In this document: positions 10,148 to 64,000 of the stretch, in pieces | Layout: each line of letters starts with the position of its first letter | How positions within the stretch are numbered: position 1 is the stretch's first letter | Source: Pholiota molesta | Lineage: Eukaryota; Basidiomycota; Agaricomycetes; Agaricales; Strophariaceae | Length of the DNA: 64,000 bases | NCBI GenBank assembly: GCA_014925825.1 | Contig: JACGCK010000005.1 | Coordinates: forward strand, 682,001 to 746,000 | Direction: 5' to 3' | Made by a program: the position numbers and the translations under genes | The notes under the pieces: generated by a model | Told to the model about the DNA's origin: nothing | Database searches by the model: none | Seen by the model: the letters and a program-made list of their open reading frames with translations, nothing else

Positions 10148-11430
10148 TCATCGACGCCTTGGAGGACCTTTGGGTCGGGAAAATGCCTTCGGAGGGTTGG
10201 AAACAGGCGCGTTATCACTGGATGATAATCCTAACTCTGCTGTCAGATAAGCCTCATCCAATTCTTTGGGATCTGATGTCTCGATTTTACGCGCAGCCAG
10301 AGTGACGGCAGGAGTCAAAGAGGCCAAGATCTGCTTCGCTGCTTGGTAAGTTGTAGTGGATCCAGAAGAATATAGCATTCTGTGTTTGATGGGTGAACTG
10401 GAAGGGCATGAATAGATGAAGACTGCACTGAAATTAGTAGACTCTTCCACTGCTAGAATTAAAATCACAAATAACAACGCACTGATTTCGCGACCGCCAT
10501 TCTGCCCGCTGGGATGAGGCCAAGTAAAGAAGGCATAACATGGTTCTGCTTGTGGGAGTGATGTACCCAGAGATTCAACGGTAATTTCTTCTGCCGTAGC
10601 TAGGGCAAGGGTTTCGGTCTGAGGGTTTATAGTCTGCCAGTAAGGTGTGAGAAGTTGTAATTCGATATACACTTTTCAACGGCCAAGATGTGCCACGGCA
10701 AAACTCACGATAACAACTATAGCACTCCCACTCCCTTGTCCCAATTCTCTGACAGAATTTTCCACTTCTTCAGACCAATTAAGGCCCACACCAGCTCCGA
10801 TATGGCTTGCTCTACCTCTACTACCTTCGTAGGTAGCTGTTCGCTTTCGGCGGCGCGTAGATCGCCATTTCTTGCTCGCGTGCAGAAAGAGGATGAGGGG
10901 CAGCGTTGTGTCGTAGATGAGATGCATAACTCTCTGCGGTGAGGTCTGTTTTAGATGACGCAAATATAGAGTCTGTGAAGAGAGTAGAGCCCAGGGATCT
11001 AAGCAGTGGCAAACGCGTTGAAGCATACAGCATCTATCAAACCAATCGGTGAGGCATAACAGAGGAATATCGAATAGTCACACTTGCCTTGTCGCGGACT
11101 TTCGCAGAATCAGGTACATAGGAGATTATCATCCAATCCGCCGATGGAGCATCGAGCTTGGCGAGGATATAGTTAGGAGAGCCATCTGGTACGATGTCTT
11201 CGCCCTGTAGTTGTGCCAAATCTTCTTCCAGAGAACCGGTGATTGGCACGGAAAGATCATGCACAAGAGATTCTGAACGAGGACAAGTAAGAATCAGGCA
11301 GCTTGAGCACTTCAAACAAGAGACCGTTTTCAATAGATACTTTGATGAACCGTGTCGACTTGGATTGCACGGCGTCGGCGAATTTGGCGGCAAGATCTGA
11401 CGAAACAGTGATCCCGGATAGAGCAGACAT
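10148..11430 (-). CDS. TWF1: Twinfilin (two ADF-H domains), with apparent base losses
   Basis: Actin-monomer-binding, capping-protein-interacting regulator. The start MSALSGITVSSDLAAKF opens ADF-H domain 1, which ends [23 protein letters not shown] and TLFTDSIFASSK. The linker holds PLSAREQEM. Domain 2 begins near YEGSRGRASHIGAGVG and carries CYAFFTWPHPS, FIYSCPSSSPIKHRMLYSSG. The C-tail AFSRPKGPPRRR resembles the basic capping-protein-binding tail of yeast Twf1. One intron is GC-AG. In the linker the reading frame slips twice (near 10863 and 10834), each time one base short: DLRAAESEQ and YEGSRG sit in different frames. A third slip may occur near the intron at about 10435-10490. About 320 residues if restored. 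The start is only 51 bp from the next gene's start. Confidence 0.85.
11034..11087 (-). other. GC-AG intron in twinfilin
   Basis: Minus-strand donor AAG|gcaagtgt and acceptor tttgatag. Removal of 54 nt joins KVRDK to MLYASTR, the most conserved string of ADF-H domain 1. Confidence 0.85.
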
Positions 11431-11481
11431 GATGAGAGTTGTGACCAAAGCTAAGACAGCTACTCTTTATAGCACTACATT
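11431..11481. promoter_or_regulatory. 51-bp gap between twinfilin and VAC1 start codons
   Basis: Twinfilin ATG ends at 11430 on minus and the FYVE gene ATG is at 11482 on plus. The gap must contain both 5' leaders unless one gene starts transcription inside the other. Confidence 0.6.
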
Positions 11482-15769: not shown

Positions 15770-15885
15770 GATTTCCATCTGTATTTCAAAATCTACATTC
15801 CTAGAAAAATTAAATGTTACATACAATATACACAATGCAATTTATAACAGAATTCAATGTAATCAAAACAATAATGATATGCATG

Positions 15886-18800
15886 CTAGCGATGAAGCGA
15901 GCCCATGAAACTTGACAAGTCTAGTCCTTCATACTCATCTTCGGCCGGCAAGTCTTCCAAACCTTGCAATACGTTCTTCTGGGAGACAGCTCCGCTTTGT
16001 TCTTTGGCTTTAGTCTTAGCAGAAGCAATAGCATCTTCCTCTTCGCTCGTACGACGGAAAAGGTCCAGTACAAGGTCAGTATCCATTGACGCCAATCCGG
16101 TGTTCTGCTGGGTGACAACAGAGTTTGCGATATTGAGCTTAAAGCGTTGCAAACTGACATTATGGGTCATTAGATTTCTGCTTATCGACAAATGATGGAC
16201 AACATACCCCATGATTTTTTCTTCAAGTGTTCCTTTCGTGATTAACCGATATACGTTTACGACTCGCTTTTGCCCAATGCGATGAGCCCGGTCCATTGCT
16301 TGCAAATCCTTCATTGGATTCCAGTCGTGTTCGACGAAGATAACAGTATCTGCGCCCGTTAACGTTAATCCCAGGCCTCCGACATGTGTTGTTAGCAGAA
16401 GGCAGTCAATACTGGGATCGCCGTTGAAGGTTTGAACGACAGCATGACGTTTATTGGCATCGGTCCCTCCGTCAAGCCGCATATATGTGACAGAGGGCAT
16501 ATGTGCCTTGAAGAGATCCGTTTCGATTATGTCCAGCATTTGTTTCATTTGACAAAAAATGAGGACTCTATGTTGAGAAAAGGATCCATTGTTGTCCGAG
16601 ACAGCGTCGATGAGCTCTGTCTTCTGGGACTCAGGACCGATACTGTTTCCGCAGCCGATGCCACAGTCGAGAAGTATTTGTCTGCAAAAAGGTTGTCAGA
16701 TCAATCAAAATATTCAAAGGATGGAGAACTGACTTCAAAGCCAAAAGCTTAGGGGCGTGGTGTATATCATTGAGGTTATTGGAAGCTTGAGGAGCGCTAA
16801 TATGGGCGAAAGCAGAGTCGATGGCTGCCTTATCAGATTTTAGGACAAGTGCGGGGTGATTACAGAGTTTACGCAGATATTGCAGTGATTGAAAGATATG
16901 CTGCTGTCCACTGTCATTTCCTTCCGAAGGAGACGTATTGACAGTATCTGCAGCGGAAACGCTGGCCTTGGACTTGCCAAAATCATCGTAGAGGTACTTT
17001 TGAAGATCCGAAAGTTCGCAATAATAGTCTTGAATGATTTTTGGTGGTAGATCATTTAGGACATCTTCCTTCAAGCGACGAAGCAAGAATGGCAGTACTT
17101 GTTTGTGAAGTGCTTCAAGAGCCAGTGCAGCTTGAGATGGATTAGTCAACTTGATCAAGAGCTTGATATTTACATTTTAAAACGTACCAGCTTCCCCGTT
17201 TTTGCTTTTGCCATCCCGATTTGATAAAATGGGCTTTCCGAAACGTTCGTTGAATGAGGATTCCGTACCAAGGAAACCGGGCATCAGGAAATCGAACAAA
17301 CTCCAAAGCTCCAGCACATTGTTTTGTATTGGTGTTCCAGAGAGGATAAGCCGATGTTGAGCTTGAATATTTTTGACCGCCTTCGTGAGTTTCGTCTTAG
17401 CATTCTTGATGACGTGCCCTTCGTCCAGAATACAATACAGCCATCGGTAGCCCTCGAGATTCGAAATATCGTTTCGAACCACTTCATATGATGTAATGAC
17501 TACGTCGTAAGATTGTAATTTTGAAAGTAGACGAGACCGCTCCCTCGAGTTGCCAGTGTAGAGAACAGGGCGTAGTGTATTTGTATACTTCTGGATCTCG
17601 TAGTACCAATGCCCTGTCAAAGTCGGAGGACAAACGATAAGAGAGGGTAGGTGGACAGAGTCAGGCGAATTCGTTGCTTTGTGTTTTTCGGCACGTTCGA
17701 AATGCTTGCTCGCAAGAATGCATATAGATTGCAGTGTTTTTCCAAGTCCCATGTCTAATAAGGGAAGAATGAGAGATTGATCAGGTCAAAGTGTACAAAG
17801 TTGGTATTACCGTCACAAAGAATGCCATGCAGTTGATATTTGGCCAAGAAAGCAAGCCAATTGACACCATCTTGTTGATATTTGCGCAATTCAGCTTTGA
17901 TCGCGACTGGTATGATATACTGTTCAACTTTTGATCCATCCAGCAATTGACTGAGGAATTCACGCTCTTTTTCACGCCGTTTAAGAAGGTCATCCGAAAA
18001 TCCAGGAGGATCGGGCAATCCAACCTAAATATTGCATTGCTTAAACAACTTTTATTCCATAGCGAAAGGTAAGAACTAGAACACACCTCTAGAGGTACCA
18101 TCTTCACCAGCGATGCAAAAATGTTGGTAGCAGTGGAACGAATTTCGTCATTCGAATCACTCATGCGGCCGAGAATAGGCACAACCATGAAAATCACGTA
18201 TGGAAGAGCTTTTATATCAAGCCGGTTGACGATATCTAGGAAACATTTGAATATGGTTAGCACTCGTATGTATGTAATGCGAAATTTGAAAAGATGCTCA
18301 CGATATATAAGTTCGGTTGCTCCTTGTCGATTTGTTAATACCAAGGGATCTTGCAAGAGAGGGATAATTTTCTCGATGACATAGCGCATGGCCTCTGGAG
18401 TCATCAGGTCACAGATGATCGCAAAGCAACGGGCAGCAGCCTGTCGTACGATAGCAAATCGGCTTTGAAGTGCTAGGTTTATCATGGGGAATATTTCGTA
18501 CAGCTTCGGCCAAAGCTCCTCGTGGAAAGTAGGAATAACATCTTCTAAAACGCTCAGGAGTCGATGACATCCTGACCGTGTTGTTTTTCTATGAGCATAT
18601 CTGCTTGCTGAGCTGTATCTATAGCTGGATTAGAAATCGACTATACCACATTTCAAGATACCTACCTGTTTGACAAGCGCTTAGCAGCCCCCCAGCCATC
18701 GAGTGCCACATGCTTGGTATCACATCCAATAATCGAGGCCCAAACTTCGCAGATAGCTGTTGGAAAGCTTGCCCAGCTCCTCTTCGTGCAAGGCGAGCCC

Positions 18801-21800
18801 TTTGAGCTTCCTGTGATTTCTCTGTTTCTGTTCGTTCTACATCTCCGTTCGACTCTTTGGCCTTTGTGACAGATAAACCACCGGATGCTTGGAACGATAG
18901 AATGCCTTCTGTTAGTTTGCGCGAGTAAGAGAAGGTTGGGGTTTGCTCCACATCCTGGCAAAGGAAGTACAGAGATTTTTGACAATTTTATCAGGAGGTT
19001 GAGATATATTGTGTTCGACGCAAAATTCGACGAAGGATGCAACTGCGACAGCTGATCTGAGTTGTAAATCGATGTTTTCTTCGTTCTAAAAAGCCATTAG
19101 TAAGCCACAAGGGTGAATATGACGAGAATGCCTACTTTGATTCCGTTCATTATTCCCTTCACAACTGGGCTGACTTTATCGGGCGTGCTCTTGAACGCAA
19201 CGAATGCTGCTGCAAAAGCAGCTGAAATGCGAATGTCATGTTGGGTTTTGATTTCATTATACCTATCGATACTTGCGAGTATAGCATTGCGTTTTTCTGC
19301 GATTATTGCCAACTCTTTTTTCCGCGTTCGTCCTAAGGAATCCTTTAATCTTGTATACATATTCCCAACAGCGTTCTGAGCAGTTTCGATGGTAAATCGT
19401 CCCGGAACGGTACCCGAAATATCAATCTCTTTGCCGAGGAAAGGGATAGACGACATTGGAAGTTTACAATCAGTTGCAAACATCTGAAGAAGAGCGATAC
19501 AATCAGCGTGGATACGACTCAGCGCAAAGGCCATTTCATGATATGCGGGCGGCGGCTTTCCCTGCAACCATGCGAGGGTCCTCTTCGTAATCTCTTGGGC
19601 AAGATTGGATGATTCAAGAAGCAGAGGGGCTTTGTTTGTGATTTTTCCGTGTATTCCTTGGCCCATTCTTCTGCAATGACGGCTGTCAAAAACTTTTGCA
19701 ACATGCTAGTTGAATCGATGTAATGCAGAAGGATGGGTTGGAAGGTCTGATCTATCGGATTTTGCTTAAATAGAAGTATTAGTACTGTGTGACTTATTTT
19801 AAAATGTCAAGTGCAATAAATTTACCTCTGCAGGCCAATGTATCATAAGAGATGCCAAGGCTTTTGCGGTTGCAATCCTAGCTTTGAACGTTACGTCCAC
19901 AGTTATTAAGGAAAGGTCTTGAGCCAGCATGTTCTTGTCGACATTATGACGTTCCAGAGGTAGAGCTCCTTCGACCGCAATTGAAGGATTGTGGAAGGCT
20001 GAAGTGTCGATAGCTATGCCGATGGGCGTCATGACTATTGCATACCAGTCCAGAATCAATTGTTGTGTGACAACGTTCTCCATTCTTCCAGGAGAAGGGG
20101 CTATGACCGACAGCGCTGTCTTCCACGCCGAAAGGCTAGCGTCACGAATATCCGTTCGTTCTTCGCAGATCAAGTTTTGGAATAGCAATGAGACGAAAGG
20201 AGTGGAATCCAGTCTGTAGGAAGCGAAGGCACTAGCATGAATGAATCGAGGGTCTTAACTACGGCCAACCGAACATTGGGAATTGTATGCCGGAAGAATG
20301 GGAATAAGGTTTTCGCCAGCGTTGGAAGCGGTAATCTTGAAGTCTTTTGAGTATATATTCAGAGGAGTAGGAAAAAGCTTACGATGTCCCTTCTTTTGCT
20401 AAGATCTCAATCACTTTGTCATATCCTACTAACTTGCCTAAAAAACAGGTATTAATTTTAAATGAAGAAGAGATCAACTAAAATAAAATACCGAGCAGGT
20501 CCATGACCACACCAACACTCGAACTTAGATCGTCCTTCATGCACAAAGGCAGTTCCATAGCACGAGTAGAATTTGCTCAAGCGATTCGGGGAGTTGTTGG
20601 ACGATATGTTCTGCAACAGGCAATAAACATGATGCCGCAACAGATCGCACGTCATCGTCACGATCTCCCAAGCTAAACATCATTAACAAGCGAAAAAAAT
20701 TAGAAAAGACGCCATACTCACCCCAGCATTGCGGCTTCCACTACGCCACGAAGAACATCACGCCCATCCTTGGGACTTTCACAATCTTCCTGTTTCACGG
20801 AAGGAGTCTCATCGAACATGTCACTCCTCACAGCGACCTCGTATTTTATGCCAAGAAGCCCAGCATGTCGAACTTCCCAGATATGACCTCTTTCTGTATC
20901 TGTAAGTGCCTTGGTGCTTGCAATGAAGTCTTGACGTATCATCTGCAACAAAACAGAGTGGACATGGAAGAGAGAGCGACGGGGCATGAAGAGAAGAAGG
21001 GAGGCTAATGTTTGAGAAACCGTCTCTCTGACAGGCGCAACAACCTAGAAAACACATGAGTTTTTCAAGTTTCAATTCAAAACGCAAAAACTGACCTGGT
21101 CGGAAACGAAGTCGCTGAAGCGATCCAAGACCAATATGCAAAGGAATTTAGCGGCCAAATCGTTGCACCATTTTTCATGAGCTATTTCGTTTTCTGCGAT
21201 TGAAAGGTTGTCTGCCGGCGAAACTTATATTAGAGAAATGAGGATCCTGATATTTCACTTACGTACCTCGCATACCACCACATTTTCCTTGCAACTTCAA
21301 TAATTCTCTGAGTGCCATGGCAGCACCATGTCGGACTTCCCAAGCGGCACTGAATAGATCCACCTCCAGAACCCTGACGACTCCGTCCCAGATCCATACC
21401 CCTTCCTCGACTTCAAGGGCTTTTGACTGTTTCGCGGACTTGGGGGATACAGCACCTCCTTTAGACGGATCAACGACGACTTTATCAGGAGCGACTCCGA
21501 GGGTTGGACTTGAGAGTCTAGAATTTGTAGCGCCCTTTTCGTCCGGGTTGATAAGTCGTGCCCTAGGCGATGTTAGCAACAAAACTGCATAGAAATTGCA
21601 AATCTACACACTTAGCATGACCACTTGCAGCTGCCGCATAGCGGGCACCTGCGGTTTGAGGAGGGGGGCTACGAAAGCCGAATTTCCTGGTTTGCGTTTT
21701 CGTTTTAATCTGTTCCTTTCGCGAGCTGACAAAGCAGCGGTATCGACCTCAGAAACCGGGTTTGGGGCGGAAGGAGAGGGCGGATTTGGGGTCAGGGAAC

Positions 21801-22613
21801 CAGCCATCGGCGACGGTTCCTTTAAGGGGAGTTCGGGAGGACAAACATCCATCGGCGAAGAAGCTGCAGTCTCCGGCTGAGCGGGAGGTGCATTGGTATT
21901 GCTTGGATCGATCTCCATCTCGCCTGCAAATTCCTTGTCAAGATCCATGTCGTCTTCGACGCCATCCAAAAATCCGAGACCAAGCCGATTCATGGCATCT
22001 TTACGTGCTTTTTTGACTTCTTGTGCACTCGAAAGAATGCCCGCAGGCTTGACAAACTCCTTGCCTGATGAGGCTAGAAGAAGATTGCCTTGAGTGACAA
22101 GTTCTTGGATCGAAAAACTGGGGAAATCGGGCGGGGGTAGTGGCTCAGTCTCAGTCCTGTTGAGGATGGTAGCTGGCAATACATCTCTATGGCACGCAGG
22201 TTGCCAGACGGGGACAAGGGAAAATATTTGGGAAAGTGCCACAGAAGCAGCTGTACGCGATTCGAATGATTTGGAATGAAGGAAAGGAATAATCTAGAGA
22301 ATATGATTGATGCTCGTTCTATGTAGATGAGCTGGACACATACCCTAGCTACAACAGCCAACAACTCTGCCCATGCCGTGCTGTCGGTCAGCTGTATTTG
22401 CTGACGGGTTGCACCCGTTTTTATGTCGTCCTCAACGATCGTAACATCACTGATAACACTTCTAACTGCTAGCTGCGCGAGCTGCTTGGCCGCAGTATTC
22501 CTCACTGAGGGGCTTGAACCTGTATCTAGTAGTAGGAGGAGCCTGTCCAACCTGCAAATTCGCGTAAGCGACCTGTACTCATGGTGCTCGAGGAAGACAT
22601 ACCTTGAAGTCAT
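15886..22613 (-). CDS. MOT1: MOT1 (BTAF1), SNF2-family ATPase that removes TBP from DNA; several apparent base losses
   Basis: Start MTSR joins LDRLLLLLDTGSS across a short intron, the MOT1 N-terminus. HEAT-rich array follows, including LSARERNRLKRKRKPGNSAFVA and LWNCLCAMKDDLSSSVG. The ATPase lies in the C-terminal third: Walker A in MGLGKTLQSI, DEGH box in LDEGHVIKNAKTK, SGTPIQNNVLELW, LLTTHVGGLGLTLTGADTV, DRAHRIGQKR. It ends DLSSFMGSLHR. Six exons lose frame by one base, near 21670, 20540, 20204, 19647, 18960 and 18556; in each the family sequence continues in the next frame with no intron available. Restored length would be about 1,900 residues, normal for MOT1. The ATPase third appears clean. 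MOT1 is essential in yeast, so real inactivation is unlikely. Confidence 0.93.
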
Positions 22614-22835
22614 GCCTTAAATGGCAAATCGGGCCGGGAACGATCGGTCGCTTTATTAAAGTCGCAGACTGCGTGTATTTGGGTTTGTTTACGGGGGGAT
22701 TTTCTGAGACGAGCGCTCGCCTTTAAATCTCCTCTGATGAACTGTGACTTGAGTCCGTGACTGTCACAGATCTTGCCAAACTTAGTATTCCCGAAAAAAC
22801 CCTGACCTCAGGCGCCGTCCTTCCGCGCGTTTTCA
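22614..22835. promoter_or_regulatory. Divergent promoter, MOT1 / JmjC gene
   Basis: 222 bp between the two start codons. No gene and no certain motif seen. Confidence 0.5.
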
Positions 22836-45390: not shown

Positions 45391-45545
45391 CGGTAGGACG
45401 ATCATTGGATCATGCGCGAGGATTTGGACTTGGAAAAGATAACATGGCTTTGGAAAAAATGTTTTGAGGCTCCTAGTAGTAAGTACATTTTTTTGTTGCT
45501 TCTTTTCTTTCATCTTTTCTTTCATTTTTACTAACTTTCAAGTCA

Positions 45546-48110: not shown

Positions 48111-48329
48111 GGTCAAGGGAATCAAACATACTTATATTAGGATGTTGCTGTTGTAATTGGCCTCACATGCCAGCGGCATGGGGCCGCAAGATGTTAGAAG
48201 GGAAGAGAGCTCGGGCGAGCACCTGTTTTTTTTTTCTGACACACGTCTAGGAAATGTAGCCGATCCGCATAGATGCAGTGCATGTCAGGCATGTTACATT
48301 GTAAAAACAATTCGTCCCAGAAAGGGTTA

Positions 48330-49153: not shown

Positions 49154-49275
49154 CGCTACGTAAAATCCTTGGCAGCGAGCAATGTAAGTAAGCGTCTCTG
49201 ACGTCACGATGACCACTTCCGCTCCTGCCCCTATTTAAGCACGCTCGCAGATAGTCTCGCCTCCAGTATTCACCC

Positions 49276-49645
49276 ATGGCTTTCACTACCTCGGACATCT
49301 GCAAGGTCAGTGCGCCTGCCCCTACCACTCCACCAGCTAACCCTCCCAGATCATCCTCGCCATCTTCCTCCCACCGCTCGGTGTCTTCCTCGAGCGTGGC
49401 TGCGGCGCAGACTTTGTAAGCCCCCGTCTCGCCCTCCGTCTTTCCCTGCTGACCGCCCCACCAGTTCATCAATATTCTCCTCACGATATTGGGCTACATG
49501 TACGTTTTCTCTGCTCCCTGTCCGCCAACATTCTCTCACTCCATTCCAACAGTCCAGGAATCATTCATGGCAAGTCTTCTCTTACTCCCTACCCGTCCCT
49601 GCTCTCATCCGATCTCTAGCTCTGTACATCATTCTCAAGTATTAG
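49276..49645 (+). CDS. PMP3: PMP3/RCI2 plasma membrane proteolipid
   Basis: Tiny two-helix membrane protein affecting membrane potential and salt tolerance (yeast). Five exons give MAFTTSDICK, IILAIFLPPLGVFLERGCGADF, FINILLTILGYI, PGIIHA and LYIILKY, 57 residues, the full family length. Both transmembrane segments and the C-terminal HALYIILKY are intact. Four introns sit in a 171-base coding sequence; the last has a GC donor. Head-to-head with the alpha/beta hydrolase. Confidence 0.95.
49570..49619 (+). other. GC-AG intron in PMP3
   Basis: Donor ATTCATG|gcaagt, acceptor gatctctag. The 50-nt removal joins IIHA to LYIILKY, an almost invariant PMP3 ending. Confidence 0.9.
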
Positions 49646-49882
49646 TATCATAGTATGACACCATTCCGCGGACATACCACTTGCCATCTTGCTATTCATA
49701 CCATTCAACGATTTGACATTTGTACTTTATCATGTTGTTATCATCCTTCCTTACTGCTTACAGCAATCTGATTACCTTACCTTAATGAAATGTGACGATT
49801 GGACAATTGGACATTTTCATATGTATGATAATCGAGAATAGTCGTTGAATATTCAAATCTATATGCGTTAATATACATTCTA

Positions 49883-52800
49883 CTAAGGCCCTTCGCTTTC
49901 ATCCTCGCTCACATTCGCACTCACATTCGTGCTCGGATTAGCACTCGACCCACCCTCGCTCGCACTAACAGCATCGCTCATCCCATCATCGCTCTCGCCA
50001 TCTTGCGTGTTCCCGCGCGACGACTCTTCGTCCTCACTCCCGCTTTCCCCTGAAGATGACTCTACAGCAGGCGTCTTTGCTACCACCTTTGCCGCAGGTC
50101 TTATCGTCGCGGTAGGCGTCGTCGCTGACAAAGACTGAGGACTTGCCAATGTCGTCGCCGTCGCCGATGACGTAGCCACCTCGAGCGCCTTCGTCCTCAC
50201 CGCCGCCAGCCTTGGATTCGCAGGTTCTTCCGCCTTCTTCTTCGCGTCTCCCTCCGACTCGCTACTGCTGTCGCTCTCCTCTGACGATGTCTCGGGGGGT
50301 CCAGCCGGCGTCTTGGCGATGGCACCACCAACAGCGGCACCGGCAGCGGTGGAAGTGGCCACGGCGGTAACTGCGCGCAGACCCATAGCGATGCCATGCT
50401 CTTTGCTCTTTGTCTCCTCGCTCTCGCTCTCGCTTTCACTGACATTGGCAGCGGCGGCGGCACCAGGAGCAGCAGAAACAGCGACTGCGGCGACTGCGCG
50501 CAGACCCATAGCGATGCCATGATCTTTGTCCTTTGCCTCGTCCTCGCTCTCACTGTCACTGTCGCTGGCACTGGCACCGGCGGCGGCGGCACCAGGAGCA
50601 GCGGAAACAGCGACGGCGGCGACTGAGCGCAGACCCATAGCGATACCATGCTCCTTGCCCTTTGCCTCGTCCTCGCTCTCGCTGTCACTGGCACTGGCAC
50701 CAGCGGCGGCGGCACCAGGAGCAGCGGAAACAGCGACGGCGGCGACTGAGCGCAAACCCGTAGCGATACCATGCTCCTTGCCCTTTGTCTCCTCGCTCTC
50801 GCTATCACTTTCACTCTCACTGGCACTTGCACCAGCAGCGGCACCAGTAGCGGCACCAGCAGCAGCGGAGGCAGCGACTGCGGCGACTGCGCCAAGACCC
50901 ATGGCGATACCATGTCCCTTGCCCTTCGTCTCCTCGCCCTCGCTGTCACTCTCGCTCTCCGTATCTTTCTCGCTGTCGGTCTCCTTCGCCATGGCCTTTT
51001 TCTTCCCCGCCTCCTCCTCCTCACTCTCCGTCTCCGTCTCCGTGTCGCTACCCTGCGCGTCAAACTGCTGGATCATGTGCGTCCCGATCATCCAGCACTT
51101 GCGCAGGTTCTCCACCTCCGCCGCGCTCAGTTTGCGGAAGCGCTCCTTGTCCGCGTCATCCATGTTGCCCTCGGCCCGGGACGCGGGCAGTGCGTGCCAC
51201 GCGCGGATGTCGTCCTCTTCGACGATGTCCGCTTGGTACAGCGCTGCCAGGATTTGGCCGAAGAGCGGCATGCGCGTGGATGACGCGCAGTGGGCCTGGG
51301 TAGGACTCGAGCGTCAGATATCATGTCAGAGAGAAAGACATAAGAATACGAAAAGTAAATGGACGACGTCATGGAACGATGCGACGCGTCAGGGATGAGG
51401 TGGTTGTAGATCCATGTGTAAGGTCGCGCCACATATGGCAAAAAATAACACATGGCAAAGAAGCCGATGCACCAGTGCGGTGCAAGACGCGAAGTGGAGG
51501 AGGAAATAAAAAGTTTGAAAAGACCAAACGCACCTGTAGCATAACCACAGTCTCCACCGGATCCACACCGCCAATCCTGTTGATCAAATCCCCCCAGCGC
51601 CCCACGACCTGCCCGATCTCCCGGCGCTGCGCGGCCACATCGCCCTCCACCAGCGGAATGCGCTCCACGACCGCCGCGACGACCGCCTCCTTCACGCGCG
51701 CGAGCGGCACGTTGCTCGCCATGCGCAGCGTCTTCAGCTCGACGGCCGCGTTGTCAACCGAGTGCCCCTCCGCGAACGCGCGCGCGAGGCTCTGCGTCAC
51801 CTCCGTACGGAACTCCGCGTCCGCCATCAGCCCGAGGCCGCCGCCTGCGCCGGCGTCGAGCGCGCTCGCGCTGAGGGAGAGGTCTGAGTGGCCGGAGATG
51901 GAGTCGCGGTCGCCGTAGGCGTCGAAGGCGCCCGAGGAGTCGCTTTCTGTGTCCGAGTCCGAGTCGCTTGACGAGGCGGCGGCGAGGTCCTCTTCGATAT
52001 CAGAGGCATCGTCGCCTGCGTAGTGGGATGCCTTATGAGCGACCTTCTTGCGAAAAGAAGATAAAAGATCTACCGAGTCTCATGAACCGCTGGTTCTTGT
52101 AATTCTCTGGCCCTTCTTCGTCGTCATCTTCGTCCGCAGGTGGGCCGCGCGGCCAGACAATGGCATTCGAGTCTTTGCCTAGCCCAATTTTGTCTATGGA
52201 GTCTTGATCTACGTGCACCGAATTAATGAATAATGCATCTCAGCTGATTCTAGTGAGAAAATACCCACTAGCTTCGACCTCTTCGATATCTGAATCATCA
52301 TCGTCCTCATCTGCCGTAACATCGTCTGCGGTCCTCTTCTTCGACAAGCGCTCAAACGGCTGTAGCACCGCATCCGGGCCTACAACGACGCCCTCACCAA
52401 TCAAGCATCCTCGGGCAACGTGCGTGCGGTCCTTGATCTGCACGTCCGCCCCGATAATGCTGCGCTCGACCGTGCAGCCTTTGCCGATCACTGCGCCTTC
52501 GAAAAGATACGAATTGCGCACTGTCGACCCCGCGCCTATGCGGCAGTTCTGCCCGATTACCGATGCGACAATGGTCACGTTCTCTGCGACAGTGGTCGAT
52601 GCTCCGATTAGAGTATTTTTGCCGACGGTGCACGTCCTGTCAAGTAAAGTGAGCCGTCGAATTTTTGTGTCTGGTATGTTGTAGAGAAGTGGGTAGACGA
52701 GCAATCACACAAGTCGAATGTGGGCGTGTCCATTCCGTTCCATTGTACCGATGAAAAGGTGGAATATTCAGACTGCCGAAGCAGTCATGGAATGGTGTCT

Positions 52801-54136
52801 TTAGAAATGACAACTTACCTAGAGAGCTCGACAGTGTTGCCTTTTGCGATATATCGATTGCCGCGAGTAAGTTCATAGATATGTCCACCGGGATGATTGT
52901 CATCTGGCACGAGAGGGAAAGTCCAGCGGGATAGAATATCCTTACTGTAAGAAACACAATTAGCATCGTCATAGCATAGTTTCATTTTGCATGGAACACT
53001 ATAGCACCTTATGGACTCGTAGCTGCGTGTATCCTGTACGCGTGCGGCGTAGCCGTCCTCTGCGACATAACAGTAGATATTCTTCATCAAGATATCGGAT
53101 GTGAGAATTCCATGCACGAAATCCCGGCGGATATCAAGGTAATCAAAGTTGTCCTGGAATAGCGAGGGCACCTATCCATCCGAAACATAAAGAAAAAGAC
53201 AGAACATCAGAACCACACTACCAGAAGGATCGGAGCGGGCTGGGGCGAACCTCGACAGAGCAGACATCAATTGAGCAGTCAAGGAGGTCGTTTCGGATGT
53301 CGACTTCGCGGTGGGCGGCGAGGACCTCGCGCGGAATGTTGATGCCCTTTGTTCGCGGGTACCCTTGCACATGTTCGTAGTGCAGACATTCATTCGTCTC
53401 TGGATCAAGCACGAACACCGCTGATTCGCCCTTGGCTCTATGAAAAAAAAACCATTAACACAAAACACAAACAGCCAAAGGCGAAGAAGTTTACCCACCT
53501 CGTCCGATGTCGCTCCCCACTCTCCTTCACCACCATCGTCATAATTGCGTCCTTATTCGTCCGCCGGCGCTCCTTGTGCACACGCACGACCTCGTCGATG
53601 CGGATGTTGCTCACCAGATCGCCCATGACGAGCACAAAGTCGGACGTGACGAGCCCGCGCGTGTACATGTCGCGCATCGCGTCCCCGGGCGAGAACGTCT
53701 CCTTCGCGGTCATGATCGGCACTATCTTCATGCCTGAGCCCGGCTTGGACCATTTCGAGTCTCTGGAGGTGGGGCGATCAGCGTTCGGGATTAAGATGGA
53801 GGAGAGGTGAGCAGGGCTTACTTGATCGCATTCTTCACGAGCTCGGCGTGGGATCTGCAGACGACGAAGACTTCCTGCACGCCAGCGAGGGCAAGGCTCT
53901 CAAACGTCCAGTCCAGCAAGGGTGCATTGCAGATGGGGAGCAAACACTGTGATATAGATTGCGGAATCGGTCTATGATCTGGACGACCGAAGAAAGATCT
54001 CTGCGCTTACACGAGGTTTTCGTGCTGTGAGCGGCCTGAATCGTTTGTTAAAGCTGTCGGCGAGGATGACAGCCTGGAGGACCTCCTCCTCGTCTATTAG
54101 TTTTTCTTTACCAGAACTTCCCGATTTTGCGGCCAT
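49883..54136 (-). CDS. GCD6: eIF2B epsilon (GCD6) with a long repeat-bearing C-terminal extension
   Basis: Catalytic subunit of the eIF2 guanine-nucleotide exchange factor. It starts MAAKSGSSGKEKLID and enters the nucleotidyltransferase-like domain: QAVILADSFNKRFRPLTARKPR, CLLPICNAPLLDWTFESL, FVLVMGDLVSNI. The left-handed beta-helix follows (CTVGKNTLIGASTTV, SVIGQNCRIGAGS, GAVIGKGCTVERSIIG), then an acidic linker and the W2/HEAT domain (LARAFAEGHSVDNAAVELK ... MPLFGQILAALYQADIVEEDD ... LRKCWMIGTHMIQQFDAQ). In the families I know the protein ends about here with an acidic tail. Here the frame stays open for roughly 340 more residues: five or so Ala/Gly-rich plus acidic repeats, then Ser/Glu-rich sequence ending SEDESEGP. 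Nine or so introns, all in frame; no missing bases found. Confidence 0.93.
50320..50960 (-). repeat. Five imperfect tandem repeats (123-141 bp) in eIF2B epsilon
   Basis: The block reading acccatagcgat on plus recurs at about 50381, 50504, 50633, 50756 and 50897, spacings 123, 129, 123 and 141 bp, all multiples of three. Each unit encodes HGIAMGLRAVAAVA, an Ala/Gly stretch (SAAPGAAAAGASAS) and an acidic Ser/Glu/Asp run. Confidence 0.9.
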
Positions 54137-54613
54137 AGATAATGAGAAAAGGTAGAATCAATAGAATTTTGGAAATGAGGATGATCGGTATTATGATGGC
54201 TTGTGAGTCACATTCTCAATTAGGTGATGGCAGGTGTTCAGACATCAACATATTCAACAAAGCATGGACCTTCGATTGACACACCAGTATTTAAGAAAAC
54301 CAATGTATTACAGGCACCTAAATGATGAGAGCACGATCCAATGAAAGCACTATGGGGTATTGGGTGAGGGAATGGACCGAGTATTAGGTATAAAAGTCGG
54401 AATGTGGCTAGTCGTAACATCATAAAAAGAGAGAAAGCAAACGGGCCCATCCTAGCGTATCATAGGCGAAATGCTAACGGTATGAATCCAAGGGATATAT
54501 GGAATGTGAGTATTGACCAAGAATGAAGAGAAATGGGAATAAATGGGCTCGTCAAGGTCGTTCAAGGGTGTAGGAGTCGTGCCAACGAAGAAATGAACCA
54601 AAAGTGGAGCTGT
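54137..54613 (-). other. Intergenic, eIF2B epsilon promoter
   Basis: 477 bp between two minus-strand genes; holds the eIF2B epsilon upstream region and the 3' UTR of the next gene. No gene supported. Confidence 0.5.
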
Positions 54614-55751
54614 TTAAGCTGCTGCGGCAACAACGGGGGCAGCAGCAGGGGCAGCCTCAACAGGCTCCTCAACGGTTGGCTCAGGAGCAGCAGCGGCCTC
54701 GGTCGCTGGGTTCTCGAGAGGAGCAACAGGAGTGGGCTCGTCAATCACGGGAGGGTTCTCGTTGATCTTGGCAGGGGCGGCAACCTCAGCCTTGGGCTTC
54801 GACTTGAAGAAGTCGCCAACACGGGCAGACAGACGGCGACCAACTTTAATGGCCTTGCTGTCTGCCTTCTTCTCGTCCTTCTTCTCCTCTTTCTTCTCCT
54901 CCTTCTGACAAGACACTTAAGTATATGACCAAAATGAGATAGTAGAGAAATACACACCTTGTCCTCCTCCTTCACCTCTTCAGCAGCGGGGGCGGCCTCA
55001 GCGGCAGGAGCAGTCTCACTGAGAAATAAACATGAGACGATTAAAATAAGTGAGTGACAACTTGCACTCACGTCTCCTTGACGGCTTCGGGGACGGCAAC
55101 CTCCTCCTTGGGCGCCTCCTCAGCAGCGGGAGCCTCTGCGGCAGCAGTAGGCTCCTCCTTGGCAGGCTCCTCGGCAGCAGGAGCAGCAGCCTGCGAATGG
55201 AAACAGGGTGAGTTTTTCCGTCGTCGAGAAGAACTAAAAATAGAATAGACTAACCTCGGCTTCTTCCTTCTTCTTCTCCTTCTTGGGGCTCTTGGGAGCC
55301 TTGACCTTTTTCTCTGACTTTTTACCGTCCTTGAAGGGGGCGAGGAGCTTGGCAAGCAAGCCAGGGCTCTTGGGCCTCTCCTCCTTCTTGGCTTCGGGTT
55401 CAACCTGTAGCAACAGATGAGCTGGCTGGGAATAAAGGGGCTATTGATGGTTGTTACGTACGGGCTTAGCGTCTTCCTTTACGGCTTCCTCAGCGGCAGG
55501 GGCGTCGGTAGCGGGCTCAGCAGCGGCGGGGTGGCCTCGGCCTCAGCGGCAGGGGCAGCCTCGACCTTGTTGAGAAAGGAAATTTTAGGAAGGGCGAAGA
55601 AGGAAGAGCGTGGTGGACGCACGGGAGCAGCAGCAGCGGGCTCCTCGACCTTGGGGGCCTCAACCTCGGCGGCGGGGGCAGGGGTAGCCTCGACGGGCGC
55701 GACCTCCTCAACGGGGACAACGGGGGCAGCGGTGGCTTCGGGGGCAGACAT
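54614..55751 (-). CDS. Ala/Glu/Pro/Lys-rich low-complexity protein, unknown function
   Basis: Start MSAPEATAAPVVPVEE. Six exons, all separated in phase 0, encode Ala/Pro/Glu-rich blocks. Two better-ordered segments stand out: RPKSPGLLAKLLAPFKDGKK with KAPKSPKKEKK, and GRRLSARVGDFFKSKPK followed by PPVIDEPTPVAPLENPA. The end is AAPVVAAAA. No membrane segment or catalytic motif. At 55528-55531 (a G run on plus) the frame is one base short: EAEATP must continue AAEPATDAPAAEEAVKED from the next frame. Upstream on minus is a long CT-rich stretch and a possible 5' UTR intron (gtatgt...cccctcag), typical of highly expressed fungal genes. About 290 residues if restored. Confidence 0.72.
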
Positions 55752-56858
55752 TATTGCAGAACGCGACGTGAGCTGGACGCGCGAGGGGGTGAGCTGAGGG
55801 GCAGGGAGATATGAAAGGAAATAACATACGTTGAAAGGAATTAAGAGAGAGAGAAAGTTGCGTGCTACGCAGACTATGGGCCCAGAAGGGAGCTGAGAGA
55901 AATTAGGAAGGAAGGGATAGAGAGCTACTCCAATTTGGATGCCGCTTCTTTTTATTTGGTTCAATCTGTTTGCTTCTTGTTTGGCCCTCAGCCCTATTGC
56001 GCCAGGGTCGTCGCCAGGTCCCGTTCCATCCCTACCTTTTGATGTCCGTCCGGTCCCCTAAATACAATACGTGTCGTCTCTCGCTCGCCTTGTCGTTGCC
56101 AGCAGTGTCCAGAGCCCACCAGCAGCCAACCGCTGTGCACAGCGACCCCTGAAGCCATGAACATGCTTATCACTCGATATGGACATCTTTTTATTTATAT
56201 TCAGCAACCGAGATCACGTCACAAAGAAGCCTATAAGTTGCTCAGTGTTCTTCCGTCTCTGCCCTCCTATGCATCCTCTGGGAGCAGCGCAGAGAAGCGT
56301 TTGGCCAGGATCATCACACAGAACCTGATTTCCTGCAGATCCGAGGCAAAGCCTACATAGTGTACCAACCTTGCCATCCATTATATGAACCCACAGCGCC
56401 GTTTCAACGCACTCACACGCCAGTCTTCTAATCCCCCATCTCTTTTTAGGCTCTATTCCGCTCAAAAGAAAAATGCAACTTGCACAAAGCGCAGAAAATT
56501 TCGTCCGGATGTTTTCCTATGTTTTGCAAATGTTTTCACCCCATTTCAAATAGCGTCCGTGCCCATCAGGTCGTCGTGACTCGTCTGCATGCGTCTTCCC
56601 GCTTCCATGTCTTCCTCCTATAGGCGCGTTAGCGCCCATCTTGGCATTCCGCCCGGCCATCTGATGGCTGCGGCGACGCCCCGTCCGCTCTCTGCGTCAT
56701 TGTTCAACAACGCGTCAGGACACAATAGCCTGCTTGCATCACAATGGAGCGAGCCTACCGACACGAGGCCCTTTGCATGAGTATATTAATGCTGTCCTCG
56801 CTGCGGTGAAGCTCTACCTTTTTCTCTCCCCGTCTCACGGCTGCGCCTACGAGTCATC
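55752..56858. promoter_or_regulatory. 1.1-kb divergent intergenic region
   Basis: Between the Ala/Glu-rich gene (-) and the SUR7-like gene (+). The first ~110 bp are strongly pyrimidine-rich on the minus strand, next to the Ala/Glu gene start. No gene with splice or family support found in the rest. Confidence 0.5.
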
Positions 56859-57922
56859 ATGTTCGCTGCTATCGCGCCTATCCTTGCGTTTGTCGCCTTC
56901 TTGCTACTGCTTTTGGTATCCCTATCGGTGCCAATTATAAAATCCATATATCTCTTCCGCCTCTCCGCAAACATCAGCTCCAGTGTCTTTAGAAGCAGTG
57001 CGAGTGAGTCGGCCAACTTCGGCGTCTGGGGCTATTGTCTCTCGGGTATAAAGGCCAGGTATGCACTTATCAGCCTGCCGCGTCATCCCATGTCCGTCGC
57101 AGTCACTTTCTAATGTCGTCCTTGCTGTCACTAGCGTTATTGGCATCAGCAAAAACACTGCAGCCCAGTGCTCCAGACCACATCTAGGGTATACCATCGA
57201 CAGCACTGTAGCCAATGCACTGTATGTCTCTTGCGCCTGTCTTGCGTGATTGATCTTGTGCTCATGGAGCTCTTGATCTATTTAGAAATGCCCAAAAGCT
57301 GGAGAACATCATATCTCGTACCACGACAGCTGCCCTCGTGCTCCACCCCATTGGTATGTCTTTGGCCTGCTACTACCTCGGTCACCTATAACCCAACTAT
57401 AACCGTGCATTCCTAACCTTTGCAAATTATTACCCACAGTTGCAGCATTCGCCTTCGTAACTCTATTGATATCACTCTTCATCCTCCGGCGCGGATCAAA
57501 TGGCACTTCCAGGCTCCCATCCCTCTTCACCACGGGCATAGGAAGTCTCACTGCTTTCCTTACAACCGTGGTATTCTTGATCGATGTTATTCTTGTTGCA
57601 GTCGCTCGCCACCGTGTGTCTAACGCTACAGACGGCGACATCACTCTTGCATGGGGCAATGCCGTGCGTATTTTTTTTGTTTCGGGAGCTTTCCGCTATC
57701 TTATTGTGCACTCTCACCAACCTTATCCACTATAGGTATGGATGGTGCTGGGTGCGGCTATCGCGCTCTGGCTCTCCACAATCGGAGCATGCGCTGGCGT
57801 CTTTGCATGTGGCAAAAATAGGAACCGGTATGTAGTGCGCACAAGCGCGCATTCCCTTCCATTGCGTTCTAGAATTACCGCTTATTATTGTTTTTCCTGG
57901 CAGAAAAACGTCCACCTATTGA
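56859..57922 (+). CDS. SUR7/PalI family four-helix membrane protein
   Basis: Plasma-membrane protein of the SUR7 (eisosome/MCC) and PalI/Rim9 (pH-sensing) superfamily. Start MFAAIAPILAFVAFLLLLLV gives helix 1, followed by an ectodomain with FGVWGYCLSGIKA, then helix 2 (HPIVAAFAFVTLLISLFIL), helix 3 (TTGIGSLTAFLTTVVFLIDVILVAVA) and helix 4 (VWMVLGAAIALWLSTIGACAGVFA), then a short basic tail (GKNRNRKTSTY). The FGxWGYC signature fits the family. Six exons, in frame, about 235 residues. Whether it is the PalI or the SUR7 type cannot be decided by eye. Confidence 0.82.
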
Positions 57923-59198
57923 TTTCACGAAACATCTTCACATCTTCCCAACATCGTGACATCGCCACGAGTTATGAATAAACGACCACTTGACACGGAC
58001 CGGAATGACGATACTTTGACCCATGTCCTGCCTGTATCCTTAACATTTGCTACCTTCATCTCGCTGTATTACCGACCCGTTGATTTGACATTTGTACTAC
58101 ACCCTCTCACTTTATCAGGGCCGTCCAATACCATCTTCTACTAGTAATATTATACCTGAATGCTAATATCGCCTAATAATATTCACACTAACGTCACACG
58201 CGAGATGGTCTATCACATACTAATCACTCTATCAAACAATTATTATTGCGCAAAGCTATCGATCAATACGTCAATGCCAATGCCTTTGCTTCTTCTCGAT
58301 ATCGAACAGACGTACAGAGCAAAGAAGCATGGGTGCACGGAGTGCGGTCACCCATGCTCGACATGGCACTTTTGTTACTAGGCCGGATATGCGTATGTAG
58401 TTCCTATCATTCGGAAATGCACGAGTTTATATTTAAAATGGTCTTCATTGGCAGATACATGTGTATTTTGCTCAGGTATTGGTATGCAAGTACGTACTTG
58501 TATATGTCTTGAGGTGCAATGAGTCTGACGATCATCGATACTCAATGTATAGCACAACCTGTTCAGCATTCAAACAGTGTCTTTACGGCGTGTTTTTTGC
58601 TGTAAAGGTGGGGCCATGCTGACTGACTGATCTGAGAACATCAAAGACGCGCGACGCGTCTGATTATTGATATACGCGCTGATATGTTAGCAAGGAAATT
58701 TCACGATCTCTGATCGGAAGTGCGTCTGTCTGATTATTCACCAATTTTCGCAATGCAGCACACCCTTGGCACCCACATGTGTATGTACATCAAGATTCCA
58801 GAGGCCACGCCCAAAGAATCTCAAAGAATGCGACAATCAGGACGCCACCGACTAGACCTTGACTAGGCCCTTTTAATTGGAATGGCACACCTCCGTCCTC
58901 GGCATTTAGGCGAAAGCGTTCATGATATCTGGTTCTGTGTTGCACCTCAGATAAATTACTCCTGAACGTTGAACCATAGTTGTTTCTGTCCTATCAAGTG
59001 TTGATGAACTACGCGACGTTTCTTGGCACTGACTGATGATGATCGTCTGGAACATAGCAAGCAAGTTTCCTGCTATGCTGATAGAATGTATAATAAGCCA
59101 CTCATGTTACAATAGGATATCAGAGTAGTATAAATGACGGCATTGCACGCAATGGATGGCTCACGCACGGCTCCTAAATGCACATACCATCGCGATAC
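57923..59198. other. Long gene-free stretch
   Basis: 1,276 bp with no supportable coding sequence on either strand and no RNA gene I could recognise. A motif tctgattattNA occurs twice (about 58657 and 58729). It lies between two 3' ends (SUR7-like + and NOP2 -), so promoters are not expected. Confidence 0.45.
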
Positions 59199-61670
59199 CT
59201 ATGCTTTTGTCTCGACCGATTTCGCCGCCGCGGGTTTTGACCGAGGGGGCGGGCGGAGGCCCTTGGCTTTCATACGTTTTCGTTTGGCCTCTATAAAATC
59301 CAGAACGTCAAATTTATCAGTAAACCACACTCCCGCATAAACGCCCGCAAACGGGAAAACGCGACATACCCTCAAGATAAGGCCTGTCTTCCTCTGCATC
59401 GAAGCCCTTGAAGTCCGACACCGGCACGATGTCCGTCTTGAACTCGTCGTCCACAAGCACAGGCTCGTCTGCCTCCTTTGCCGACTCGCCGGCAGCCGCC
59501 TTCGAGCGTTTGTCCACGCGGAATTTGGCGACGAAGAACCCGTCCATGTTGTGCACGTGCGGGTAGAATCGGCGCGTCAGGCTGACGCTCGGGTGGAAGG
59601 TCTTGCCTCGGTAGCTGGTGAAGCCCTCCACGCCGAACTCCAGGCCCGTGCTGATGAGCTTGACGTTGGGGCGCTTTCGGAGCGCGTAATCCACGACAGC
59701 CTCGTTTTCGTCGACTGTGACAGAACAAGTGGAGTAAACGAGGTATCCTCCTGTCTTCGATTCGGGGTGACGCTGTCAATGGCACAGAGGATTAATTGTT
59801 TTTGTAGATGAGATAAGAGGGTGAAGTCGCGATCGGACTAAATATTGATATATAAGCTTCATTCCGTACAATTCGATGTACAGAAACTTACTTTGTTAAC
59901 TTTGACACTGGCATCTTTGCTGATGACACCAGTACCACTGCAAGGCGCATCCAACAAAACACGGTCAAATCCACCCATGACTTTAGGGAATTCTCTGCCG
60001 TCATAGTTGCAAACCACCACGTTCTTGCACCCCAGGCGATGCACGTTCGCGGTTAGACTCTTTGTCCGCGTCTTGTTCATATCGTTGGCGAAGACAATAC
60101 CAGTATTTTGCATGAGGGCCGCCATATGAGTCGTTTTACCACCCGGCGCAGAAGCCATGTCCAGGACACGTTCGTTGGGCTGGGGAGAAAGGGCAATGAC
60201 AGGGAGGAAAGAGGAAGCAGCTTGGAGCATATAATGGCCAGCCAGATATTCCGGGGTGGCACCAATGGTACAGCACTCTCGAACACTTGAAGGCCGACGT
60301 TGGTCCATTTACCAATGGGCTCCAAGTTCACACCTCGGTTGACGAGTGACTGGGCAAGATCTCGTCGCCGTGTTCGCAGAGTATTTGTCCTGATTGTTAC
60401 TGGTCTGGGAACTTCGTTGGCTTCGAAGAATTCATAGCCTGCAAATAAATTAGTATGTTACGACGAGAAATTTCGATGGGTAGACTGACTTCATTGACAG
60501 GGAAAAGCTGGAATAATTTCTCAGCAAGGAACTCGTTATATCCATAATAGCTAGCAATATCCGCGACAAGTTGGTCAGTTATTCTGACCGAGACCTGTGA
60601 TTGAGTACGCGAGATCAATACGGGTTGAGAATACGAATTGAAGAGAAATAGCTTACCGCCCCTTCTCAGCCCGCTTGTTGAATTTGGAAAGCACCTTTAC
60701 GCATTCCTCATTCGCCTTTGGACAAGATGAACATCAGGGCCTCCAGCAGCTTTTTCCTGCTCTCGTTCAGCGGCTGTAGGCAGATGGAAAGGCTCTGCAT
60801 CAATGTTCCCCTCGGCGTCCTCCTCTCCATCCATGTCAACATCGTCGTCGCTGTCGGAAGCCTGAGCGCCGGCTTGCGCTTCCTCGAGATCAAGTTCGGC
60901 TTCAGCAGCGGCGCGAGCCTCCAATTTGCGCGATCGCTCAGCCATGTTTTTCATCGTAACAGGTCCTTCATCATCGTCTTCTTCATCACTATCGCTGGAG
61001 GAAGCATCTGATTGTGTCGGAATAATTTTAGTGGGGCGCTCAGCCTGCTTTGATTTCTTCGACTTGGTTTGTACAGGCACAGGTTCATCCTCTTCGTCAG
61101 AGTCAAAGTCAAACTCTACCGCAGGTCCTCGCAGAGGTTCATCACTATACAATGTATCGTTTTAGTAATTGATTCATGTGATACAGTAGGAGGCGTACTC
61201 GTCTTCGTCCATCTCAACGTCGTCAAGGCCGCCTTCGAAAGCGTCCAAATTCGAGTGTTCATCGTCGTCGTCGTCGTCATCTTCATCGCTATTTTCGAAT
61301 AATGATCTATGGGCGATAATAGAATATTAATTTTCAGCTGGCTCAGGTGGTGAAAAACGTACTTCGAAGCTTTTGCTGGAGAAGAGTCCTCGACGTCTTC
61401 CCAGCCCTCTGATCCAACGTCCTCTTCCTCTACAACGGCAGGTTTTTTATTTTTACCCAGAGATTTAGTTGGGTTATGGATCGACGGAGCCTTCCCCTTC
61501 CCCTTTCCGTTGAGATCCTTGACCTTCTTTGTCGGCCTAGGGCTTGGCTTTCCATGAGATTCGTCGTCAGCTTCTGCTTTACGCTTTCCGAGCTGCTTTT
61601 TTGATTTCCATTCCGGTTTGGGGTCGATTGATTCAGGCGGGGCCTGTTTATTCTTCGCGCGGCGACCCAT
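59199..61670 (-). CDS. NOP2: NOP2 (NSUN1), 25S rRNA m5C methyltransferase; four apparent base losses
   Basis: Nucleolar methyltransferase needed for large-subunit assembly. Start MGRRAKNKQAPPE, then a Lys-rich and acidic N-terminus. The core reads VQRRMRNAVKVLSKFN, SRSEYTDQLVADIASYYGYNEF, NEVPRPVTIRTNTLR, VPxGATPEYLAGHYMLQ, LDMASAPGGKTTHMAAL (SAM site), LLDAPCSGTGVISKD (Cys, motif IV), LVYSTCSVTVDENE (catalytic Cys, motif VI). It ends KPAAAKSVETKA. Frame is one base short at 60700/60701, about 60580, about 60262 and 59760/59761; each break sits inside a conserved string and no intron can explain it. Essential in yeast, single copy as a rule. Head-to-head with the next gene at 210 bp. Confidence 0.93.
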
Positions 61671-61880
61671 GGTATAGTTTGAGAGAGTCTGGGGATAGTT
61701 GAATAGATAACTTCGCTCTGATAATGGACCCCTTGTGTTTGAAAAAAATCGGCAAGTATCATTGCAGCACGTGGAAATATTAGGAATCCAATGCTAAGTC
61801 AAACAAAGCCCCTAATTTTGCTCAATATCGCGTTGCTCTGCTTTGCCCCATCTAGTCTTTAGTCTGCATGCCCTTCTTCC
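61671..61880. promoter_or_regulatory. Divergent promoter, NOP2 / unknown membrane protein
   Basis: 210 bp between start codons; no gene seen. Confidence 0.5.
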
Positions 61881-64000
61881 ATGGCGTCCAGCCCTCCTCC
61901 AAAATCCACTGAACTGAGAAATCAATCCCAAGACATTTTTCACCGCTTGGTGAAGAGCGTTAGCGGCCGAAATGAATCGATCACTAGCTCTCCTACTCTA
62001 GTAGAGCAATCCTCACCAGAACTGCTCACAGAGTCTTCAGATGAATTCCTAGAGTCATCTTCATCCGGCACAGCTCTACAGAGAGCGTCTAGTTCGACTT
62101 CCTCACAAACAAAGCTGAAGAGGCGAAGGAAGATTGCAGATAGACTAAAGAAACTGGGCCAAGACCTAGGCAACTTGAAGTTCAAACAGAACCTGGATGA
62201 TAGCAAATCTGTCCCTGCTTCGCCGAGAGTTACACTGGGCGAACTTCAATCTCCTGTATCAAGCACCTCTATAGCGGCCCTTCTGACAGTTTAACACCTC
62301 ATGGAGACCACGCGAATTACTCAGCATGGTTGCAGAAGTTGAGGAACCCGCAGTGCCAGACATTCCCCCGGATTTACCAGTCACCTCGACTTCCAGTGCT
62401 GCCGATGCCTCCGAGGCAACTTCACTCGCTCACCGCATTCAGGCTCTAATCGACTCTCTGCCCTTTCCAAATGCTAATCCGACAAAAAGATACCCATTCC
62501 CAAGAATCCCAAACTACCTGCCAGCGGCCCTGATGGTCGTCCTATCCCTCCTCCAGACTCGTCTCCAATCAAAGACTCAAAATTACTTAGTTGGTTGTCT
62601 AGTCCATCTGTCATGAATGGTTCCACCCTCAAAGGCAAACCTAGTATATGGAGCATTCTGGACGGATTTAACCCCTCATGGGTATCGCCCAGTGAGGGCG
62701 AATCATCTATTCCACGTCACAGCGAAGATCAAGTTCCCAATGGTGACAACAATGGGGATAGAGATACTATTTTTTCAGATAACTCAAGCGTCATGATTTA
62801 TTCTCCGCTCATACCGACGAATGAAGATTTGGTCGAGTTAGCAGAGCTCGTCCCTGTCAGTGTTGAAGAGACACCTGAACCGCAAACGGAGTCACCTATA
62901 GCAGGGACTTCATGGACGACTGTGTGGCCGCTTTCTCTATGGTATAACGAGTCGCCTTCTGGGGACAAGAGCCCGGTTGCAGCTACCGGACGTCTATCAG
63001 GAGAAACTGTTATATCTCCGCATCGCACCAGTATAGACAGTGCTGGCCATGTTGTCAGGACTCAAACGGTACGGGCTTGGGTCCCTTCAAACACGAAACT
63101 GTCTCTGCAAGCAATGTGGTGGGGTTATCGGCTGTGCGATTCGAAATACATTCATACGTTCACCTACTAATCAATATTTTTAACAGATATCTTCCTCCTC
63201 CTATACTTGCAATTCTGAGTGACAAAACTTTAGAGGCGACGAAACGCGCTGCTATGATTACAGCCGCTCTTACGTGGTTCTTCAATAATCTGCCAGTCAC
63301 CACACTGCCTGGACCTGTTCAACCTGCGGCACTGTTGCTCCAACGATTAGTACCCTTTTTAGGATACATCGGTACTTTCATCTCTTGGAGCTGGAGTACA
63401 ATCAAAAGCTACGATATAGGTGCGTTTATATTTTCCAGTAGGCTATTCGTTACACGTACTCAATCTTTGATGCTAGGCTACGGTGTAATCTTAACTGCGA
63501 CTTGGCTCCTTCCCATCGCACTGATACCAGGAACATGGCATGAGAATGACTTTCCAACATCGCCTTCACAAGCACCTCATGCCCCTCTTCCACCGACTTC
63601 TCCCCTTCCATCTGGCAGCCCGTCGTTACCCTCCACGTCTTCACCATCAAGCCCTACACCCACGTCTCCCTCCCTTCCAACAACCACACCAGGAAGTCCT
63701 AACCTTTCCGGTTTTACGTCGCCTGGATCACAATCTACTCCTCTATCTCTGACTGCGTCATCTAATGTTGTTGCTCCATACTACGCGCGCATTGTCGTCG
63801 ATATCCCTGTGCCTCACACACCTCCAGAGCCAACTCCCATCCCTCCAATTCCTATGCCACAGGAGGTGCCCCTAGATTCACCTCTTATGGCGCAGCTCTT
63901 GAATGGGCCTGTAATTTCAACTGTACCACTTCCTGATGAAGACTCGCCGGCACCGCATATGGTGAAGGCAAAGAAAGATAGAAGAAGCAAGGCTAAAGCT
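61881..64000 (+). CDS. Uncharacterised multi-pass membrane protein, 3' end outside the window
   Basis: I do not recognise a function. It starts MASSPPPKSTELRNQ with a Ser-rich and basic region (KLKRRRKIADRLKKLG). Frame shifts by one missing base at 62278-62280, 62338/62339 and in the A run 62484-62488 link SIAA-PSDSLTPHGDHANYSAWLQK, VEEPAVPDIPPDLP and KIPIPKNPKLP. Next are DGRPIPPPDSSPIKDSKLLSWLSS and WSILDGFNPSW, then MWWGYR-LYLPPPILAILSDK across an intron with a gtgcga donor. At least three hydrophobic segments follow: AMITAALTWFFNNL, LVPFLGYIGTFISWSW and YGVILTATWLLPIALI. The rest is Pro/Ser-rich and still open at 64000. Looks like a lineage-restricted fungal membrane protein. Confidence 0.65.

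Follow-up and report, generated by a model that had tools for sequence, protein, structure and literature searches.

The question raised by this locus is whether conserved genes that look broken in the public sequence of Pholiota molesta are also broken in the organism. The window, which is the whole stretch of 64,000 nucleotides that was analysed, lies on a contig of 1,257,724 bases (C444) in an assembly comprising 625 contigs and 65.58 Mb. The sequence-only reading had noted about twenty one-base losses across conserved genes of the window, all in the same sense. This pattern mainly holds, both in frameshift-aware alignments and against an allelic contig, C303, but the gene SOG2 is not clean and one apparent gain of a base is found at position 62,672.

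The assembly, GCA_014925825.1, is given a size of about 66 Mb (PMC11856836), and the P. molesta genome at JGI is Phohig1 (PMC7055920). A set of 14 genomes that includes the sister species P. conissans is described as based on Illumina and PacBio data, with Velvet, AllPathsLG or Falcon as assembler and Quiver (PMC8480192). In the literature on P. molesta, searched through pyrophilous fungi and long-read assembly, an account of the method used for GCA_014925825.1 was not found. For at least four loci of CCT chaperonin genes, a copy is found on each of two contigs (C110/C586, C508/C555, C266/C613 and C537/C478). Because these loci are paired, some of the 65.6 Mb represents a second haplotype. Elsewhere on contig C444, the stretches C444:1233136-1236166 and C444:1250884-1255899, both close to its end, and the stretch C560:1001-6000 on a small contig are 99% identical copies.

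Frame breaks in MOT1, SOG2 and PAN2

Realignment of family proteins with a frameshift-aware aligner had been proposed as a check on the losses, and was applied to MOT1, SOG2, PAN2 and a membrane protein of unknown family. The aligner was purpose-written for protein-to-DNA comparison, allows introns, and charges the same cost for missing and for extra bases. In an injected-error control, which used PAN2 and a clean part of MOT1, it flags 71 of 80 losses and 74 of 80 gains, and the net frame is right wherever a change is flagged. Because its sensitivity to losses and to gains is about the same, one-sidedness among its calls is not an effect of the tool. In this realignment, MOT1 has six losses, the membrane protein three and SOG2 one.

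The MOT1 gene (positions 15889 to 22616, minus strand) is one base short at six places from 18,559 to 21,669, as many as had been claimed for it, and its last 2.6 kb are free of losses. Alignment to the P. conissans protein covers 1,918 codons, 1,732 of them identical, with 17 introns and zero stops. The break sites lie near 21,669, 20,542, 20,205, 19,630, 18,968 and 18,559, and each is one base short and none long. Breaks recur at all six places with 12 of the 12 relatives tried (120 are listed). At 19,630, two extra bases are called with seven of these 12, which yields the same net frame, and with one of the 12 a seventh break is called beside an intron. Three of the six losses can be assigned to third codon positions at best score, and two cannot be so assigned even within tolerance.

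The public MOT1 proteins of the relatives are full length, and a P. molesta MOT1 is absent among the best 120 of 809 matches. Two public models, from Coprinopsis marcescibilis and Serpula lacrymans (P0187 and P0230; 2,919-3,055 residues), contain both MOT1 and PAN2 and are probably annotation fusions. One copy of MOT1 only was found in the P. molesta assembly. However, searches for copies within the genome were non-exhaustive and the query's own place is absent from several result lists, so this single-copy result is not firm.

The SOG2 gene (24810 to 27892, plus strand) had been called clean, but it carries a one-base loss near 27.2 kb with all three outgroup references that reach the site. 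Five references were tried, one of which stops short of the site, and another is the species' own model, which does not include that stretch. This public P. molesta model (P0001) is identical to the SOG2 frame of the window at 892 of 894 residues. It skips the stretch around the break, and is also without a few short pieces encoded by both the window and a near relative (P0002). In P0002, the stretch corresponding to the break is a straight read-through. PAN2 (31450 to 35543, plus strand) is unbroken, as had been stated, with 0 breaks against both of its references (1,068 and 1,000 codons), and it provides a clean control.

For other genes, solved-structure references and Pfam were consulted. 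The NOP2 core has a useful solved-structure reference. Of two FMO pieces, one has no match and the other matches flavin monooxygenases weakly; the twinfilin match is also weak, and the JmjC piece matches JMJD5. A Pfam scan of 10 open reading frames assigns a family to two, namely cofilin and a cupin-like domain that scores below the curated cut-off.

The window compared with its allelic contig

The allelic contig C303 (31,921 bases) matches the window from 35,626 to 64,772, which is 772 bases past the window's end. The two copies exhibit 53 one-base differences, with the window short in 38 and C303 short in 15, and an additional 28 indels that are longer or complex. These one-base differences are distributed in patches, whose limits were chosen after the data were seen. 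In the first loss block (35626 to 42378, matching C303:1-6755), the window is short 13 times and long 0 times. In the second (58700 to 62700), the window is short 14 times and C303 twice. The middle (42377 to 58700) is balanced, with the window short 10 times and C303 8 times, and from 62.7 to 64.8 kb the window is short once and C303 five times. Where the window overlaps C303, its loss blocks are near either end; further losses are in MOT1, for which a second copy was not found by the non-exhaustive search. The stretch from 40.8 to 54.1 kb had been described as clean; from 42.4 kb onward its differences are indeed low and balanced, but bases are lost at 40,915 and 42,211.

C303 also includes two stretches that the window does not, C303:6756-7832 (1,077 bases, at window position 42377) and C303:12468-14075 (1,608 bases, at 47011). 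Parts of the adjoining DNA recur at 77-86% on contigs C367 and C299, so this DNA is perhaps mobile or duplicated. A tandem repeat in the window at 50361-50953 consists of about 4.6 copies of a 123-base unit in coding-like, G+C-rich sequence.

Several frames that are broken in the window are whole in C303. NOP2 (59320 to 61793, minus strand) has window losses at 59,764, 60,267, 60,434, 60,580 and 60,706, and a further loss at 60,468 that is intronic by frame reading. Its methyltransferase core is a single open frame in C303, where 186 residues match yeast Nop2 in one stretch, versus 61 for one piece from the window. The putative cupredoxin gene (36930 to 37580, minus strand) has a loss at 37,201, and its frame is whole in C303. 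The putative T5orf172 gene (38492 to 40007, minus strand) has losses at 38,776 and 39,033, and its C303 frame is whole at the latter site. The names T5orf172, PDCD5 and cupredoxin come from the sequence-only reading. That reading had pointed to sites at 60,262 and 37,200, which C303 places at 60,267 and 37,201, and with frames judged by eye the genes that it named NOP2 (59,764, 60,434, 60,580 and 60,706), T5orf172 (39,033) and PDCD5 (36,051) also lack bases present in C303. Some loss sites, including the one in the NOP2 intron, are outside identifiable coding frames. In the coding sequence that was compared between haplotypes, three of the four unambiguously placed losses occupy third codon positions, a count of four only.

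It had also been claimed that no break requires a base to be removed. This is nearly true, since one apparent one-base gain occurs in coding sequence of the window relative to C303, at 62,672, and a loss at 62,686 compensates for it. Within this pair, whose members are 14 bases apart, relatives back the frame of C303, although they have two additional prolines.

The membrane protein of unknown family (61881 to 64000, continuing to 64,028, plus strand) is broken in both copies, at different places. With P. conissans as reference, the window has losses at 62,271, 62,315 and about 62,480 and none later, in agreement with the three losses claimed for this gene. In C303 the first part is unbroken, and lies within an open frame of 436 residues, and two breaks occur later, at window positions 63,353 and 63,582. 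Seven references were tried. Six of them reach the later part, and all six give the two C303 breaks; with these six, the number of breaks called in the window varies from one to three, as a gap, a false intron or a single two-base call replaces separate breaks in some alignments. The remaining reference is an unspliced metagenome frame, with which the three window losses are called and, in both copies, an extra base at a true intron. Because the gene is broken at different places in the window and C303, both copies lose single bases.

Dropped heterozygous positions on contig C614

Four stretches were sampled from other contigs. One is present in three copies and another in two; of the other two stretches, one belongs to a dispersed repeat and the other has a duplicate at the end of C444. 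The three-copy stretch comprises 5 kb of contig C50 and its counterparts on C614 and C442. In the first 2 kb, C614 has 0 substitutions relative to C50, and from about 3.5 kb it has 0 relative to C442. Differences private to C614 are 6 substitutions, 11 one-base losses and 1 gain. All 11 losses are located in alignment columns 1,795-3,510, which is the zone in which C614 switches from the C50 to the C442 haplotype. C50 and C442 differ from each other at 10 of the 11 sites, and at 9 of those 10 the difference is C versus T.

Realignment of C614 with flanking sequence and a changed gap cost gives 12 losses, 9 of them on differing columns, and 3 gains. In this realignment, C614 has a gap at 15 of 166 columns where the other copies differ, versus 4 of 3,697 where they agree (Fisher p = 6e-18). 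Private one-base changes in the other two copies comprise 2 losses and 6 extras in C50 and 3 losses and 3 extras in C442. Heterozygous positions were thus dropped by the consensus where C614 passes between haplotypes.

Four other haplotype pairs served as controls, and these are roughly balanced, with no one-sidedness like that of the window. Counted as first contig short to second contig short, C110/C586 has 2:1 with 52 substitutions (a 3.4-kb piece; two short pieces were left uncounted), C508/C555 has 1:1 with 51 substitutions, and C200/C596 has 5:5 with 159 substitutions. The pair C266/C613 has 4:6 with 137 substitutions, plus 7:2 with 89 substitutions in a poor 1-kb piece. Loss block 1 differs from the pooled controls (Fisher p = 0.001) when that piece is left out, as 12:13; the pool is 19:15 with it.

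Cause and meaning of the losses

The losses belong to contig copies. Most run one way, they occur in patches and reciprocally between copies, and those of C614 fall on heterozygous sites. The missing bases are probably long-read consensus errors that arose when two nuclear haplotypes were merged and heterozygous positions were dropped. Reads of the two haplotypes would be merged into one consensus where the haplotypes are sufficiently alike, and a position with split support, either in a merged region or at a contig's switch of haplotype, would be left out. Because each dropped site would amount to one lost base, the errors would be nearly all in one sense, one base long and patchy. The middle of a two-haplotype stretch would be well separated, and so balanced. 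We infer that dropped heterozygous positions also cause losses in the window; among the loci compared, a third copy is present for the C614 stretch and not for the window. Uneven polishing had been suggested for the patchy distribution, but haplotype merging explains it better.

Long-read platforms undercall homopolymer length, which leads to one-base losses in the consensus. The window losses might likewise be random one-base deletions due to low coverage or missing polish, mostly in base runs, with heterozygosity playing no role. This explanation is unlikely, without being negligible. It fits errors that are patchy and that affect both the window and C303, and indels make up most errors of long-read assemblies (PMC8445201). 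Base runs at the losses of block 2 have a mean of 2.36 versus 1.69 (p = 0.016), and this mild excess indicates some plain undercalls. However, block 1 exhibits no such excess (1.85 versus 1.70, p = 0.32), which sets its losses apart from homopolymer undercalls, and the 10 C614 losses on sites where C50 and C442 differ argue against deletions that are blind to heterozygosity. Homopolymer undercalling as the sole cause, weakly suggested in block 2 only, was rejected. The window losses may combine dropped heterozygous sites with plain run-length undercalls, the latter in block 2 above all.

If the genes were really decaying through deletion of single bases, in one nucleus or in both, the printed bases could be taken at face value, and MOT1 was found only once in the non-exhaustive search. 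Such decay is nevertheless very improbable. The affected genes are essential, the changes are almost only one-base losses, and in two stretches losses greatly exceed the balanced rate seen in other places. A dead copy should display a mixture of stops, gains and losses, but MOT1 aligns with no in-frame stop, and the two copies of the membrane protein are broken reciprocally. The preference of the sequence-only reading for assembly undercalls over gene death is supported by the bases present in C303, by these reciprocal breaks, and by one-way losses on the unrelated contig C614.

With programmed ribosomal frameshifting or insertional RNA editing, too, a family sequence continues in a different frame. 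Such recoding might restore the P. molesta frames, and the hits in essential genes and the nearly uniform sense of the shifts are in its favor. However, the shifts are not common to relatives, whose public MOT1 proteins need none, the missing base is present in the allelic DNA of C303, and the loss at 60,468 falls in an intron of NOP2 by frame reading. We consider recoding extremely doubtful. It is just as hard to credit that the losses are real scars, with C614 a true recombinant of C50 and C442 in which mismatched bases were deleted instead of repaired around exchanges; if this were true, heterozygous sites would become frame-breaking deletions around inter-nuclear exchanges.

Consensus errors from merged haplotypes have a precedent. 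An early FALCON version is reported to have created indels where haplotypes were merged, at the nucleotides that distinguished them (Korlach et al. 2017, PMC5632298), and the probable likeness extends to merged regions, haplotype-differing nucleotides and broken genes. That account mentions indels, with data not shown, whereas P. molesta has almost only losses, from an assembler that we infer to be of the FALCON kind. A literature search on FALCON consensus errors in collapsed haplotypes found no match for spurious indels. In Trypanosoma brucei, indel errors were mistaken for pseudogenes (Cosentino et al. 2021, PMC8445201), and that case is similar in its assembly-broken frames and its allele-resolved check. 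It differs in that short reads were used for correction, whereas the P. molesta errors are deduced from contig copies, without reads.

With either cause, the feature is an artefact of a known kind, and the analysis gives no sign that these frames are interrupted in the organism. This matters to those who use the public record, in which essential genes including MOT1 and NOP2 appear broken and the SOG2 model skips its broken stretch. A three-copy stretch provides a simple, read-free test that can separate merged-consensus scars from real pseudogenes in dikaryon or diploid assemblies. As biology, the locus is ordinary.
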